Origin: Candidatus Rokuibacteriota bacterium
GTDB taxonomy: Bacteria > Methylomirabilota > Methylomirabilia > Rokubacteriales > CSP1-6
Direction: 5' to 3'
Length of the DNA: 56,783 nt
Assembly (NCBI GenBank): GCA_003221515.1
Contig: QHSI01000132.1
Span: 1 to 56,783, forward strand
In this document: piece after piece, positions 7,874 through 43,659 of the stretch
Position numbering within the stretch: position 1 is the first letter of the stretch
How the letters are laid out: each line of letters begins with the position of its first letter
Position numbers and translations under genes: made by a program
Notes under the pieces: generated by a model
Database searches by the model: none
What the model saw: the letters and a program-made list of their open reading frames with translations, nothing else
What the model was told of the DNA's origin: nothing

Positions 7874-9898
7874 ACCCCCCATCGCCTCGACGGCCGCGAC
7901 GTGAATGATCAGGCTGCCGTGGTCCTCGACCGAAAGGGTGTCGCCGGTGTCGATGAGCGTGGTCGTGCCCGACTCTTCGATTGCCGCGGGCCCGGTAACG
8001 GTATCGCCGGCGCGTAGGTGGTCGCGCTGATAGACGCGATATTCGAGCAGGTCCTCGACGACCGTGGAGTAGATCTTGCGCGTCTCGAACGCGGGCGCGC
8101 CACCGGGGCGACGCTCGAGGGTGGGCAGGCGCGGCGGGTCGAGCGGGAAGACAACCGTGAGTCTGAGGTTCAGGAGCTGCACCTCCACATCCGGCGCTGC
8201 GTACCCGTAGGCCCGCTGGTGAGCGGCGTCGAATTTCTGGCGTAGCTCCGCCCAGTCGCCGAGATTCTCGATCACGATCGTCACCGTGTGCTCCTGCCCG
8301 AGATAGCGAAGGTCGGCCGCGCGGTGGCTGACGGGCACGCCGACCGCCGGCAGGATCGACTGGAGCTCGCGCTGCATCTCGCCGTAGCGCGCCTCGGCCC
8401 AGGCGGCGTCCGTGCGCTCGAGCGGCTCGATGACGGTGCGCACGAGATCATGGCGCAGATCGGTCGCCAGCATCCCCCAGGCCGAGAACGTCGAGGGCGA
8501 CGGCGGAACGACCACGCGGGGAATCCCGAGCTCGCGCGCGATCGCCACGGCGTGGAGCGGTCCGCCGCCGCCGTAGGCGACCAGCGTGTAGTCGCGCGGA
8601 TCGAGGCCGCGCTCGGTGGTGATGCTGCGCACCGCGAGCGCCATCTTCACGTCGGCCAGCCGGACCACGCCGGCCGCCGCGGTCGCGCGCTGGAGCCCGA
8701 GCGGCGCACCGACCTTCTCGTCGATGGCCCGGGTGGCGCCCGCCAGATCGAGCGGCATCGTGCCCCCGAGGAACCGGGCGGCGTCGATCCGACCGAGCAC
8801 GAGGTTGGCGTCGGTGACGGTCGGCTCGGCGCCGCCCCGCGCGTAGCACACCGGCCCGGGATCGGCGCCCGCGCTCTGCGGGCCGAGGGCGAGCGCGCCG
8901 CCCGGGTCGATCCACGCGATCGTCCCGCCGCCAGCGCTCACTTCCTCGATGTCGATCACCGGGATGCGAATGGGATGGCCGTCCACCTGGTACTCGTCGG
9001 TCGTCTGCACGTGGCCGCGCTCGACGATGGCGCACTTGGCGGTGGTGCCGCCCATGTCGAACGAGATCAGCCGGGCGGCGCCCAACACGGTGGCCAGACG
9101 CGCGCAGCCCGTCACGCCGGCGGCGGGCCCGGACTCCATCGTGTGCACCGGCTTCGAGCGCGCGGCGTCGAGCGAGAAGGCGCCGCCGTTCGACTCGGTG
9201 ACCAGGAGCTGACCGCGGAAGCCTCGGCCCTCGAGCCCCCGACGGAAGGCGCCGAGGTAGCGGTCCATGATCGGCTGGACGTACGCGTTTACGACGGTCG
9301 TGCTGGTGCGCTCGTACTCGCGCCACTCCTGGGTGATCCGGTGCGACGCCGAGACGGCGACGCCCGGAAGCTCGCGGGCCACGATCTCGGCGGCGCGCTG
9401 CTCGTGGGACGGATCGCGATACGAGAACAAGAAGACGATCGCGACCGACTCGACGCCGTCGGCCGCGAGCTGGCGCGCGGCGGCTCGCACCGCCTCCTCG
9501 TCCAGCGCCACCAGCACGTCGCCCGTCGCGGTCAGACGCCCGGGGACTTCTTGGCAGCGGCCGCGCGGCACGAGCGGCGCGGGACGGCGGTAGAGCACGT
9601 CGTACATGCGCAAGAAATTGCCGCGGCCGATCTCCAGGACGTCGCGGAACCCCTCCGTGGTCACGAGGCCGGTCGTGGCGCCCTTGCGCTCCACGAGCGC
9701 ATTGATCCCGATGGTCGTGCCGTGGATGACCAGCCGGCAGTCGGCGAGCCGCACGCCGGCCTGGTCCACGCAGCGCAGGACGCCGGCGAGCAGCTCGCGG
9801 GGCGTGCTGAGGGCCTTGGTGGTAACGACCGTGCCCGTCGCCTCGTCCAGCGCCACGAGATCCGTGAAGGTACCGCCGATGTCGACGCCGATTCTCAT
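7838..9898 (-). CDS. hyuA: Hydantoinase/oxoprolinase subunit A
   Basis: 686-aa HyuA-family subunit, ATP-binding partner of HyuB. The N-terminus [19 protein letters not shown] contains the sugar-kinase-like phosphate loop; further family marks are [17 protein letters not shown], the GGTTAKCA actin-like motif in the middle and [18 protein letters not shown] near residue 440. The last 13 residues ([13 protein letters not shown]) fall in the palindromic repeat and look appended. ATG at 9898 gives the standard N-terminus; no strong ribosome site precedes it. It forms an operon with hyuB and possibly the GspA/GspB fusion downstream. Confidence 0.93.
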
Positions 9899-33968: not shown

Positions 33969-34244
33969 GTGACGGTCACCTTCTTCGCCGACCTCAGGCG
34001 TTTCCTGCCGCGCGGCGCCGACGGCCCGCAGCGCTACACGGTGCCCGGCCACGCGACAGTCCACGACCTGCTCGCGACGATCGGCATCGCGCTCGACGCC
34101 GACATCACCGTCGCGGTGGACGGCGAGCAAGCGTCCCGAGAAACGCCGTTACACGACACCGCCGACGTGATGCTGCTGAGTCCAATGGAAGGGGGAGCCG
34201 CAGCCGAAGGCGAGGCGACCTCGTTCAACGAAGGGGGAGCGTGA
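33969..34244 (+). CDS. MoaD/ThiS-like ubiquitin-fold protein with tail after Gly-Gly
   Basis: 91-aa beta-grasp protein (VTFFADLRRFLP ... VHDLLATIGIALDADITVAV) of the MoaD family, the sulfur carrier in pterin-cofactor synthesis. The functional C-terminal Gly-Gly falls at residues 75-76 (LLSPMEGG) but is followed by 15 more residues ending NEGGA, so it would need processing to expose the diglycine. GTG at 33969 with GAGGA upstream is preferred; an ATG at 33924 is possible. The stop overlaps the ATG of the tungsten enzyme (TGATG), a classic partner. Confidence 0.82.
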   Translation: MTVTFFADLRRFLPRGADGPQRYTVPGHATVHDLLATIGIALDADITVAVDGEQASRETPLHDTADVMLLSPMEGGAAAEGEATSFNEGGA

Positions 34245-36061
34245 TGGACCGCTACGCTTACTGGAACAAGATCCTGCACGTCAATCTGTCGGACCGCACG
34301 ACCTGGATCGAGGAGCCCGGCGACGCGTTCTTCCGGCGTTACGCGGGCGGCCGCGGCCTGATCGCGCACTACCTCCTCAAGTACGTGCCCAAGGGCGCCG
34401 ACCCGCTCGGGCCCGACAATATTCTAGTAATCGCGCCCGGCGTGCTCACCGGCGCGCCGGTGCCGGGCGCGGGCCGCCATAGCGTCGGCGCCAAGTCGCC
34501 GCTCACCGGCGGATTCGGGGAGTCGGAGTCCGGCGGGTACTGGGGCGCCGAGCTGAAGCGTGCGGGCTGGGACGGGATCGTCTTCCACGGCGTCTCCCCC
34601 ACCCCGGTCTACCTGTGGATCAACGAAGGCGCCGTCGAGATCCGCGCCGCCTCGCACCTCTGGGGCAAGATCACCGGCGAGGTCGAAGACATCCTGCTCG
34701 CCGAGCTCGGCGACAAGCTCATCCGAATCGCCCAGATCGGTCCCGCCGGCGAGAACCTGGTGCGATTCGCGTGCATCGCCAACGAGCTGAACGAGGTGGC
34801 CGGGCGCACCGGGATGGGCGCCGTGATGGGCTCGAAGAAACTCAAGGCCATCGCGGTCCGCGGCAAGACGTCGGTGAAGATCGCCGACCAGCCCGGACTC
34901 ATGACGATCGCCAAATGGGTCTCCGGCACCATGGACGAAAAGCACCGAGCGTTCCACGAGTTCGGCACGGGCGCTGCGATGCAGGGCAAGAGCCTCGAGG
35001 GCGGCATGCCCGTGCTCAACTACCGCATGGGCGCCGCCGACACGATCGCCAAGGTGGACGCGATCGCGGTGCGCGACCAGGTGCGCGTCAAGATGGGCGC
35101 CTGCTACGCGTGCTCCGTGCGTTGCAAGAAGGTCGTCCACATCGAGGAGCGCGAGGAGGCGGCGCGCGCCGCCGCGGAGACCGTGTACAAGGGCCGCGCG
35201 CGGGTGGCGGTCGATCCCATGGGTCGGTACCGGGTCGACCCGCGCTACGGCGGGCCGGAGTACGAGTCGCTCGCGTCGCTCGGCGTCAACCTCGGGCTCG
35301 ACGACCTGGTCGCGATCTGCAAGTCCAACGAGATGTGCAACTACCTTGCGATGGACACCGTCTCGCTCGGCGCCACGCTGGCGTGGGCAATGGAGTGCTT
35401 CGAGAAGGGCATCCTCACTCTCGAGGACACCGGCGGCGTGCCGCTGAACTTTCACGACGCTGACGGCGTCATCAAGGTCGTGGAGTTGATCGCCTATCGC
35501 CAAGGCATCGGCGATTTGCTGGCCGAGGGATCACTCCGCGCCGCGCAGCGGCTGGGTCGCGGCTCCGAGGCGTTCCTGACGACGGTGAAGGGCATGGAGA
35601 TGGCGATGCACGACCCGCGGCACATGCCGGCCATGCGCGCCTCGTATCTCCTGGCCCCCACCGGCGGCGACCACATGCGCCAGACCAGCAACCGCAACGG
35701 CCTGCGCAACCAGATCGGCCTCTGCCACTTCCTCGCCTACGAGGACGACCAGTCGCTCGCGATCCTCAAGGCCGTCACCGGCTGGGACATCACGCCGGAG
35801 GAGATGGTGACGACGGCGCACCGCGGGCTCACGCTCGCGCGGCTCTTCAACCTGCGCGAGGGTATGAGCCGCGCGGACGACCGGCTGCCGGCGCGATTCA
35901 GCGATCCCCTGCCCAAACACGCGGGGCTCACCCGCGAGCAGCAGGACAAGATCGTCACCGAGTACTACGTCGAGCAGGGATGGGATCCGGCGACGGGCGT
36001 GCCGACTGCGGAGACGATCCGCGCGCTCGAGCTCGAGGCCGACGCCGTGCACACGGGGTAG
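34244..36061 (+). CDS. Tungsten-containing aldehyde:ferredoxin oxidoreductase
   Basis: 605-aa AOR-family enzyme oxidising aldehydes to acids with ferredoxin as acceptor, using a bis-pterin tungsten cofactor and a 4Fe-4S cluster. The N-terminal domain shows the RRYAGGRGLIAHYL and GAKSPLTGGFGESESGGYWG cofactor segments. Cluster cysteines are C287, C290, C294 (CYACSVRC) and C365 (NEMCNYL). GAGENLVRFACIANE and ARTGMGAVMGSKKLKAI are strong family motifs. AAGGGGGAG precedes the ATG, which overlaps the MoaD stop. Such enzymes are usually oxygen-sensitive, which hints at a micro-oxic or anoxic capability. Confidence 0.94.
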   Translation: MDRYAYWNKILHVNLSDRTTWIEEPGDAFFRRYAGGRGLIAHYLLKYVPKGADPLGPDNILVIAPGVLTGAPVPGAGRHSVGAKSPLTGGFGESESGGYWGAELKRAGWDGIVFHGVSPTPVYLWINEGAVEIRAASHLWGKITGEVEDILLAELGDKLIRIAQIGPAGENLVRFACIANELNEVAGRTGMGAVMGSKKLKAIAVRGKTSVKIADQPGLMTIAKWVSGTMDEKHRAFHEFGTGAAMQGKSLEGGMPVLNYRMGAADTIAKVDAIAVRDQVRVKMGACYACSVRCKKVVHIEEREEAARAAAETVYKGRARVAVDPMGRYRVDPRYGGPEYESLASLGVNLGLDDLVAICKSNEMCNYLAMDTVSLGATLAWAMECFEKGILTLEDTGGVPLNFHDADGVIKVVELIAYRQGIGDLLAEGSLRAAQRLGRGSEAFLTTVKGMEMAMHDPRHMPAMRASYLLAPTGGDHMRQTSNRNGLRNQIGLCHFLAYEDDQSLAILKAVTGWDITPEEMVTTAHRGLTLARLFNLREGMSRADDRLPARFSDPLPKHAGLTREQQDKIVTEYYVEQGWDPATGVPTAETIRALELEADAVHTG

Positions 36062-39337: not shown

Positions 39338-39928
39338 ATGGCTCAGCTCAGAATTCCCCTCGACGCCCAGCGCTTCTCCAAAGGCCTGACCTGGAAGGAT
39401 TACATGGCCCAGATGGGCGATACGCGGGCCCGCACCGAGGACAACTACGCCAAGTCCGTCCTGACCGCCGAGGAGCAGAAGGCCTTCAGCGGCCTGAGCG
39501 GTGTGAAGTACGCGATGATGCTCGCCGAAAACTGGTGCGGCGACGTCCATCGCAACTCGCCGCTGATCGCGCACGTGTGCGAGGCGCTACCGGGCTGCGA
39601 GCTACGCGTGTTCTTCCGCGACAAGGAGCCCGACCTGCGCGACACGTTCCTGAACAACGGCTATCAGTCGATCCCCGTCGTGGTCTTCTTCGACCAGAAC
39701 TGGAACGAGATCGGCCGCTGGCTCGAGCGGGCCCACGCCGCGACGGCGAAGGCCGCCCAGATTCGCGCGAACACGCTCGACAAGGCGACCAAGGAGCAGC
39801 AGGACGCCGCGACGGCCGAGTTCCGCAAGCAGGTCCAGGACGCGTACATGGACAAGGGCCACACGCTCTGGCGCGCGGCCGCGAACGAGATCAAGCTCGT
39901 CATCGAGCAGCGGGTCGGCAAGGCCTAG
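39338..39928 (+). CDS. Thioredoxin-like family protein with single-Cys WCGD site
   Basis: 196-aa protein with a thioredoxin-like core: the redox loop reads AENWCGDVHRNSP (Cys about residue 66), followed by the cis-Pro segment YQSIPVVVFFDQN. The second Cys of the CxxC box is replaced (WCGD), so it cannot act by the usual dithiol mechanism; monothiol peroxiredoxin-, glutaredoxin- or binding-type chemistry is possible. No signal peptide. AAGGAGAG precedes the ATG. It ends at a strong hairpin. Confidence 0.85.
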   Translation: MAQLRIPLDAQRFSKGLTWKDYMAQMGDTRARTEDNYAKSVLTAEEQKAFSGLSGVKYAMMLAENWCGDVHRNSPLIAHVCEALPGCELRVFFRDKEPDLRDTFLNNGYQSIPVVVFFDQNWNEIGRWLERAHAATAKAAQIRANTLDKATKEQQDAATAEFRKQVQDAYMDKGHTLWRAAANEIKLVIEQRVGKA

Positions 39929-42042: not shown

Positions 42043-43573
42043 TCATCGCCAGTCGTCCACCGAGACCGTCTTGGCGTACGAGGCGCCCATGATGCGCCAG
42101 TAGCCGTTGGTCTCGCCGCCGACGACCACGACGTGGATGTCCTCCCGCTTCCACATCTGGATCATCTGATCCGGCGCCGCCCTGAGCTTCGTCGCCCACG
42201 GCTCCTCGCCGAACGTGGCGCGCGGGTAGATGTAGTTCTGCACGAGCTGATAGTCCCAGTACTCGCCGGCCGGCATCTGGGCGTTCTCGTAGATCCAGTC
42301 GATCAGCGCGTCCTTCTTGGTGAACCCGCCGCGGTCGATGAACTGCCGCGCGGTGATCGGGTCGAGCACGAAGACGGGCGGGATGTGCGGATCCATCCCG
42401 CGCAGCATGTTGCGGACGTGCTCGCGCCAGTGCTGCTCGCGAATCCCGAGCGTGTAGGCGGTGGCGCGGCAGCCCGAGAAGACGCTGACGGTACTGTCGG
42501 TTGGACGGAACCCGCGCTGGACGTGGAACGGCTCCCAGGGGCTTCGCTCCTCGTTCTCGGGGAACGTGATGCTGTTGTAGGCGTAGTTGTTCCCCTGCGA
42601 GCCCATGTAGGTGAGTCCGGGCACCGAGCCACCCTGGAGGTTCTGCGAGAGCAGGCCATAGGCGCGCCCGATGGTGGCGTTGGCGTGGTTGTACGGCGCC
42701 AGCGCGCCGGTGCCAGCGTTCATCTTGATCTCCAGGCGGATCGGCCCGTTGACGACCGCCATCGCCGCCATCGAGCTGGTGGTGCTGCCGCGCGCGCTCA
42801 CCCCCGTCGCGGCGAGCGCCAGGATCAGGGGAAAATATTCCGGCCGCGCGCCGGCCATCACCGCGTTCACCGCGACCTTCTCGACCGTGTACTGCCAGGC
42901 CTCGCGGAAATGGGTCGGCCGCATGCGCCCGACGATCTCGTCGGGCTTGCGGCGGGTGCGGCGTGGACCGGTCGTACTCGATCCGGTCGCCGCTCTCCCC
43001 ATTCAACGGCGCCGTGAGCCCTTCGATGACTTCCTGCATGACCGGTCGCCCGGTGAGCGGGTCCTTCCCATCGACGTACGCGCGCAGCTCACGGGCAGAC
43101 TTGCCCATGACCGGCTGCGGGACGAACACTTGCCGGAGCCCGGCCATGCCGTTGACCGAGGCCACCGACCGGACGACCCGGTCGAACTTGTCGGTGTGCA
43201 TGGCGACGGTGGGAACACCGTACTTCGCTTCGATCGTCATCGCGTGCGCGGCGACCGCCGGCGCGCAGGTGCTTCAGTGTCCGACGCCGACGATCGCGGC
43301 GTGCCCCCTCGCCTTGATCTCCTCCCACGTGGACGGGTCATCGTTGAGGTACACGCTCGAAATCGGCTTGAAGACCGTCCGCACAGCGGGCATGTGCTCG
43401 GCGAACCACGCCTGCATCTGCTTGAGGAACACATCCGAGTCGTCGAACCGGCAGTCGACCAGATAGACGGTCTTGCCGTTCAGCGTGTCGAGACGCGGCG
43501 CCAGGTCCTTCTGGACCACCTTCGGCGCGAAGCCCGTCGGGTTCAGAACCGAGATCTTCTCCGGAGCACTCAT
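42043..43573 (-). CDS. UGSC-family selenoprotein: in-frame UGA (Sec100) and an internal frame change
   Basis: Composite gene of about 509 codons. From ATG at 43573 (GGAGG 7 nt upstream) 99 codons encode MSAPEKISVLNPTGFAP ... HAAIVGVGH. A TGA at 43274-43276 follows, then Ser-Thr-Cys and APAVAAHAMTIEAKYGVPTV in the same frame. This gives a U-S-T-C redox box (Sec100, Cys103) matching UGSC (seleno)proteins. A hairpin with a GGU loop begins 6 nt after the TGA. Coding in this frame ends near EYDRSTP (about 42965). The recognisable sequence resumes at KPDEIVGRMRP in the +1 frame (from about 42948) and runs to 42043 (TNGYWRIMGASYAKTVSVDDWR end). Function unknown; a thiol/selenol oxidoreductase is inferred from UxxC. 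Confidence 0.8.
42949..42965 (-). other. Frame-change site inside the UGSC gene
   Basis: Upstream of here the protein-like frame is the one containing the UGA; downstream it is offset by +1 nt. Neither frame looks protein-like across this short stretch (HPPQARR versus RRTRR). The cause may be a single-base insertion, a 3n+2 deletion in a linker, a sequencing error or recoding. An ATG at 43002 could start the second part separately, but it has no ribosome site. Confidence 0.7.
43243..43267 (-). promoter_or_regulatory. Bacterial SECIS-like hairpin downstream of the UGA
   Basis: In the mRNA the GGU lies 18-20 nt after the UGA. One fold closes loop GGUC with CGGC/GCCG and continues GCG/CGC below a bulged C. 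An alternative pairs UGCGCG with CGCGCA and CG with CG, leaving loop GCGGU. Both place G and U in the apical loop within the 16-37 nt window described for bacterial SECIS elements. The high GC makes chance hairpins common, so this is supportive rather than decisive. Confidence 0.6.
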
Positions 43574-43659
43574 CCCACACCTCCCGCTCGTGACGTGTCG
43601 ACGACGTGATCCCTAGTGTATAGCGGCGGCACCATCCGTGGACGGCGCACGACGCACCC

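Follow-up and report, generated by a model that had tools for sequence, protein, structure and literature searches.

A divergent UGSC-family selenoprotein gene with a fused partner domain, and its possible role as a GrdB/PrdB-like selenol reductase

The minus-strand gene at 43573-42043 of the window (the whole 56,783-nt stretch of DNA that was analysed) belongs to a group that, to judge from its orthologues, encodes a UGSC-family domain and a second, partner domain in a single chain; the UGA at its codon 100 is almost certainly decoded as selenocysteine. We favour, albeit with modest confidence, a function for the fused protein as a selenol reductase of the GrdB/PrdB kind, driven by the thioredoxin system and with the partner domain holding the substrate.

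Selenocysteine in a divergent UGSC protein

A frame of 99 codons runs from the ATG at 43573 (minus strand) to a TGA at 43276-43274, which occupies codon 100, and beyond it the same frame reads U-S-T-C-A-P-A-V-A-A-H; both the stop and the in-frame continuation described in an earlier note on this DNA are plain in the window sequence. The post-UGA frame comprises 105 codons and ends at 42959, where 119 nt that intact orthologues possess are missing. That this continuation, put at about 100 codons in the note, is protein-like is borne out by the Pfam UGSC model, PF24696, whose match spans the UGA and covers residues 9-167 (93.8 bits; cut-off 25), and by its low dN/dS; measured against the nearest orthologue, L088, the ratio is given for each of the three parts of the gene in Table 1. 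Likewise, a Shine-Dalgarno-like sequence lies where the note had placed the ribosome site, ahead of the upstream ATG.

Table 1. Features of the fusion gene in the window (positions are those of the whole stretch)
Feature	Position	Strand	Basis
Shine-Dalgarno-like GGAGGT, 5 nt upstream of ATG	43579..43584	-	Sequence
UGSC domain, codons 1-99	43277..43573	-	PF24696 match spanning UGA; dN/dS 0.10
UGA, codon for Sec100 (U-S-T-C box, with Cys103 after it)	43274..43276	-	TGA in orthologues, TGC/TGT in relatives, sel genes
Remainder of UGSC domain plus linker, codons 101-205	42959..43273	-	PF24696 match to residue 167; dN/dS 0.05
bSECIS-like hairpin CGGC-GGUC-GCCG, loop from 17 nt past the UGA (predicted)	43249..43260	-	Consensus structure; silent-site freeze
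Junction of 119-nt out-of-frame deletion relative to intact orthologues	42958..42959	-	Orthologue comparison
C-terminal partner domain, out of frame in window copy	42043..42958	-	75-96% identity to second half of intact fusions; dN/dS 0.10

Family membership is clear at the level of the Pfam model but not at that of the NCBIfam UGSC equivalog, NF041046, for which the score is 63.3 bits against a cut-off of 125. Moreover, the literal U-G-S-C motif is absent: the window gene and its orthologues have U-S-T-C, in which the U and the second C are conserved. The protein is therefore best described as a divergent UGSC member, or as belonging to a USTC-box subfamily, and the note's assignment to the UGSC family stands with respect to Pfam, but neither the equivalog score nor the box agrees with it. 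UGSC is among the commonest selenoprotein families of aquatic metagenomes (PMC2398784). Five UGSC genes, with one TGA each, are present in the window's genome; the four further copies (G000 contigs C150, C107, C71 and C164) have their single TGA in frame and a partner homologue adjoining, and as many as 12 UGSC matches occur in a single related genome.

All three kinds of evidence by which the earlier note proposed to check its reading, a UGSC-family match across the UGA, Cys homologues at position 100 and sel genes elsewhere in the genome, were found. All 24 close orthologues extracted carry a single in-frame TGA, at the codon-100 position. Additionally, scanning of genome contigs yielded 119 confirmed relatives, and of the 80 that were kept, 40 have TGA and 40 have TGC or TGT. 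These proportions are not a census, because one of the peptide patterns used for scanning held the Cys form of the box. The TGA forms come from Rokubacteria, from Chloroflexota (Caldilineaceae among them) and from a few single lineages, whereas almost all of the TGC/TGT forms belong to Proteobacteria; the frame of one TGC/TGT form, L166, is defective. Of the named relatives, Candidatus Rokuibacteriota MAGs from groundwater and soil are the nearest. A tree of 78 rows requires two changes to account for the Sec and Cys labels, and one Sec sequence, from Rhodospirillaceae (L160), falls within the Cys clade, possibly through a Cys-to-Sec change or the retention of Sec. In that locus (8001-9623) the sequence after the UGA differs, and its genome has a tRNA-Sec.

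The genome from which the window derives (191 contigs, 95% complete) encodes selA, selB, tRNA-Sec with a TCA anticodon (the note's selC) and selD, the first three together on contig C184. The selD gene (G000 C150:27763-28707) itself contains one in-frame TGA, and selenophosphate synthetase is therefore probably a selenoprotein too. When 20 of the relatives' genomes were tested, tRNA-Sec was matched with 67-80 bits in all eight that encode the Sec form and equally strongly in 3 of the 12 that encode the Cys form; in the remainder the score did not exceed 52 bits, which is close to the cut-off of 47. A review reports a Methylomirabilota MAG with 63 predicted selenoproteins; our search of the literature on selenoproteins together with Rokubacteria or Caldilineaceae found nothing on this gene.

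Silent sites just past the UGA provide a further line of evidence. Among 38 Sec orthologues (L160 being left out), codons 105-108 are identical at the DNA level and codon 104 is identical in 37, these five codons corresponding to 43264-43250 in the window; by comparison, of 147 other codons at which the amino acid is invariant, only 1.4% are DNA-identical. Codons 105 and 106 each occur in four synonymous forms among 39 Cys orthologues. In the consensus structure the frozen stretch forms a bSECIS-like hairpin, and it is predicted to function as one; there are zero compensatory pairs, because nothing varies, so that the support is silent-site conservation rather than covariation.

A fused partner domain and a deletion in the window copy

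The note overlooked both the frameshift in the window copy and the fact that the gene, as its orthologues present it, is a natural two-domain fusion. In same-genus and same-family genomes it is uninterrupted over some 549 codons, in which the UGSC domain is followed by a domain of about 340 residues, and the open reading frame at 42043-43002 of the window is the displaced C-terminal domain of this gene rather than a separate gene. Elsewhere the partner domain is encoded by a separate gene adjoining that for UGSC, before it in most of the loci examined and after it in some; the natural fusion supports a partnership between the two. No Pfam family matches the partner domain, and the candidate identification of it as a GrdE homologue was ruled out by profile comparison (hhalign, 0.1%). 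A UGSC/Unknown_1 fusion, in which Unknown_1 may or may not correspond to this partner domain, has been reported (PMC2398784).

Comparison with L048, the nearest orthologue (and one and the same gene as L088), shows the window copy to be exactly 119 nt short, the best junction being 42959/42958. Because 119 is not divisible by three, the gap puts the second domain (42958-42043) out of frame, and the copy as assembled would yield the Sec domain without an in-frame second domain. Given the low dN/dS in all three parts of the gene, the gap is either a very recent mutation or an assembly error. A same-genus orthologue, L075 (G008 C7), has a frame break elsewhere in the gene.

Predicted fold, remote kinship and gene neighbourhood

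An AlphaFold2 model of an intact orthologue, built from a 113-row alignment, has a mean pLDDT of 92.5 and a pTM of 0.91; an earlier model from 20 near relatives (pLDDT 56.7) was set aside. In the UGSC domain of this model strands and helices alternate, with U100 directly after the third strand, and the domain is thereby predicted to be flavodoxin/Rossmann-like rather than thioredoxin-like. This disagrees with the thioredoxin-like fold suggested for UGSC in the literature (PMC2398784 and a review). Comparison of the model with structures in the PDB gave no match at E<0.001 and no thioredoxin among the 50 matches listed, and a sequence search of solved structures gave no credible match.

Profile comparison points instead to the Sec domain of GrdB and PrdB: hhalign aligns the UGSC and GrdB profiles over about 95 columns (93.6%, E 2.2e-7), with UxxC on UxxC, whereas the control pairs partner/GrdE, partner/GrdB and UGSC/GrdE give 0.1%, 0.7% and 1.9%, respectively. 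Several split UGSC proteins match GrdB or PrdB models over the same stretch, albeit below threshold; the best of these scores, 20.3 bits, is far under the curated cut-off of 602, so UGSC is not filed as a GrdB or PrdB member. These alignments indicate a remote homology between the two Sec domains. In a separate observation, a UGSC gene lies within 6 kb of GrdE-like and GrdB-like genes on G000 C107 (about 11.5-17.2 kb).

Neighbours on the same strand and within 400 nt were counted for 40 Cys and 40 Sec loci, many of which are close relatives, so that the counts do not represent independent events. A TrxR-like gene occurs at 13 of the 40 Cys loci and 1 of the 40 Sec loci, and none was found beside the fusion gene in the window's own lineage; an AMP-binding gene occurs at 12 of the Cys loci, and PhyH at 15 of the Sec loci, all Caldilineaceae. 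On an Arthrobacter plasmid, trxB, trxA, partner and UGSC (in its Cys form) stand in a row; trxA and trxB also belong to clostridial grd operons (PMC10880999). The Rhizobial neighbours are catabolic (malonyl-CoA decarboxylase, malonyl-CoA synthase and transporters), the decarboxylase and synthase preceding the fusion gene on a Neorhizobium plasmid. The lineage-specific nature of these neighbours, PhyH in Caldilineaceae and the malonyl-CoA genes in Rhizobiales, means that no single substrate is indicated.

An FAD amine oxidase and an ACMSD-like amidohydrolase had been put forward in the earlier note as the defining context, but neither is conserved: the amine-oxidase cluster, present in at most 3 of 81 loci, comes 54th in a ranking by locus count, and the amidohydrolase flanks 8 of 80 orthologous loci and lies on the same strand within 400 nt in none. 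Both were dropped as functional context. The window also contains, on the plus strand, an aldehyde ferredoxin oxidoreductase-like gene (34241-36061; AFOR_N and AFOR_C) and a Thioredoxin_9 family protein (39338-39928), about 3 kb from the fusion gene and kept in same-genus loci.

Proposed function and relation to known systems

We infer GrdB/PrdB-like chemistry, a thioredoxin-system donor and a substrate site in the partner domain. In the intact form, Sec100-x-x-Cys103 lies within the predicted flavodoxin/Rossmann-like domain, with the partner domain following in the same chain. The partner domain would hold a small substrate for attack by the selenolate at an electrophilic atom; Cys103 would resolve the adduct to leave a selenenyl-sulfide, and re-reduction of the Sec/Cys pair would fall to thioredoxin reductase, alone or together with thioredoxin. 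Such an enzyme would carry out a reductive cleavage driven by NAD(P)H and would dispense with the pyruvoyl subunit of the glycine and proline reductases.

A rather less probable alternative, but a serious one, is that the protein is a selenol antioxidant of the thiol/disulfide or peroxide type. Its Sec-Cys pair would then cycle against disulfides or small oxidants, and its partner domain would serve for docking instead of holding a substrate. Such roles have been assigned to most UxxC selenoproteins, the literature places UGSC with thioredoxin-fold proteins, and the TrxR-like neighbours are equally compatible with it; however, the predicted fold is not thioredoxin-like, the profile kinship is with GrdB and PrdB, and the Rhizobial neighbours are catabolic. 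It is improbable that UGSC is instead a redox or metal-binding subunit, without a substrate of its own, that passes electrons or selenium/sulfur to another enzyme. GrdA is the electron carrier in glycine reductase, and a small UxxC domain with an obligate, larger neighbour might play a similar part; UGSC, however, is fused to one partner and is kin to GrdB rather than to GrdA. That the UGA simply ends translation or arose by mutation, with the downstream frame separately translated or a relic, is very improbable indeed: internal Met codons in that frame and the frameshifting deletion of the window copy would accord with it, but Cys orthologues read straight through, silent sites are frozen just past the UGA, purifying selection acts on either side of it, and the genome has the full Sec machinery.

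Returning to the proposed reductase, a broader version is speculative and, as a whole, doubtful: UGSC and its partner may constitute widespread GrdB/PrdB-related selenol or thiol reductases that lack the pyruvoyl subunit and are driven by the thioredoxin system. In bacteria of soil and sea they would cleave a carbon-heteroatom bond of a small carboxylic acid, and in some Rhizobiales the product would enter malonyl-CoA metabolism. In any event, an orphan family is now tied by fusion to a specific partner domain. Its Cys orthologues occur in named, cultivable bacteria (Neorhizobium, Ramlibacter, Bradyrhizobium and Chelativorans), which brings the family within reach of routine knockouts and enzyme assays; the pointers for such work are thioredoxin reductase as electron donor and GrdB/PrdB as distant kin, and the filing of UGSC as thioredoxin-like is called into question.

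With the UGSC family as known (PF24696; NF041046; the 'UGSC-containing' selenoprotein of PMC2398784), the window gene has in common a homologous UxxC domain, the existence of Sec and Cys forms and an adjacent partner gene; it differs in having USTC for UGSC, in scoring below the NCBIfam cut-off and in placing UGSC and then the partner in one chain. Thioredoxin-fold UxxC selenoproteins resemble it in the UxxC box and in a probable thioredoxin-system donor, whereas the predicted order of strands and helices in UGSC is flavodoxin/Rossmann-like. To the GrdB family (glycine/sarcosine/betaine reductase selenoprotein B) and PrdB (D-proline reductase), the likeness lies in the homologous UxxC stretch and, as in grd operons, in the thioredoxin-system genes near some UGSC loci; it is confined to the Sec domain, as the partner of UGSC is not GrdE-like.
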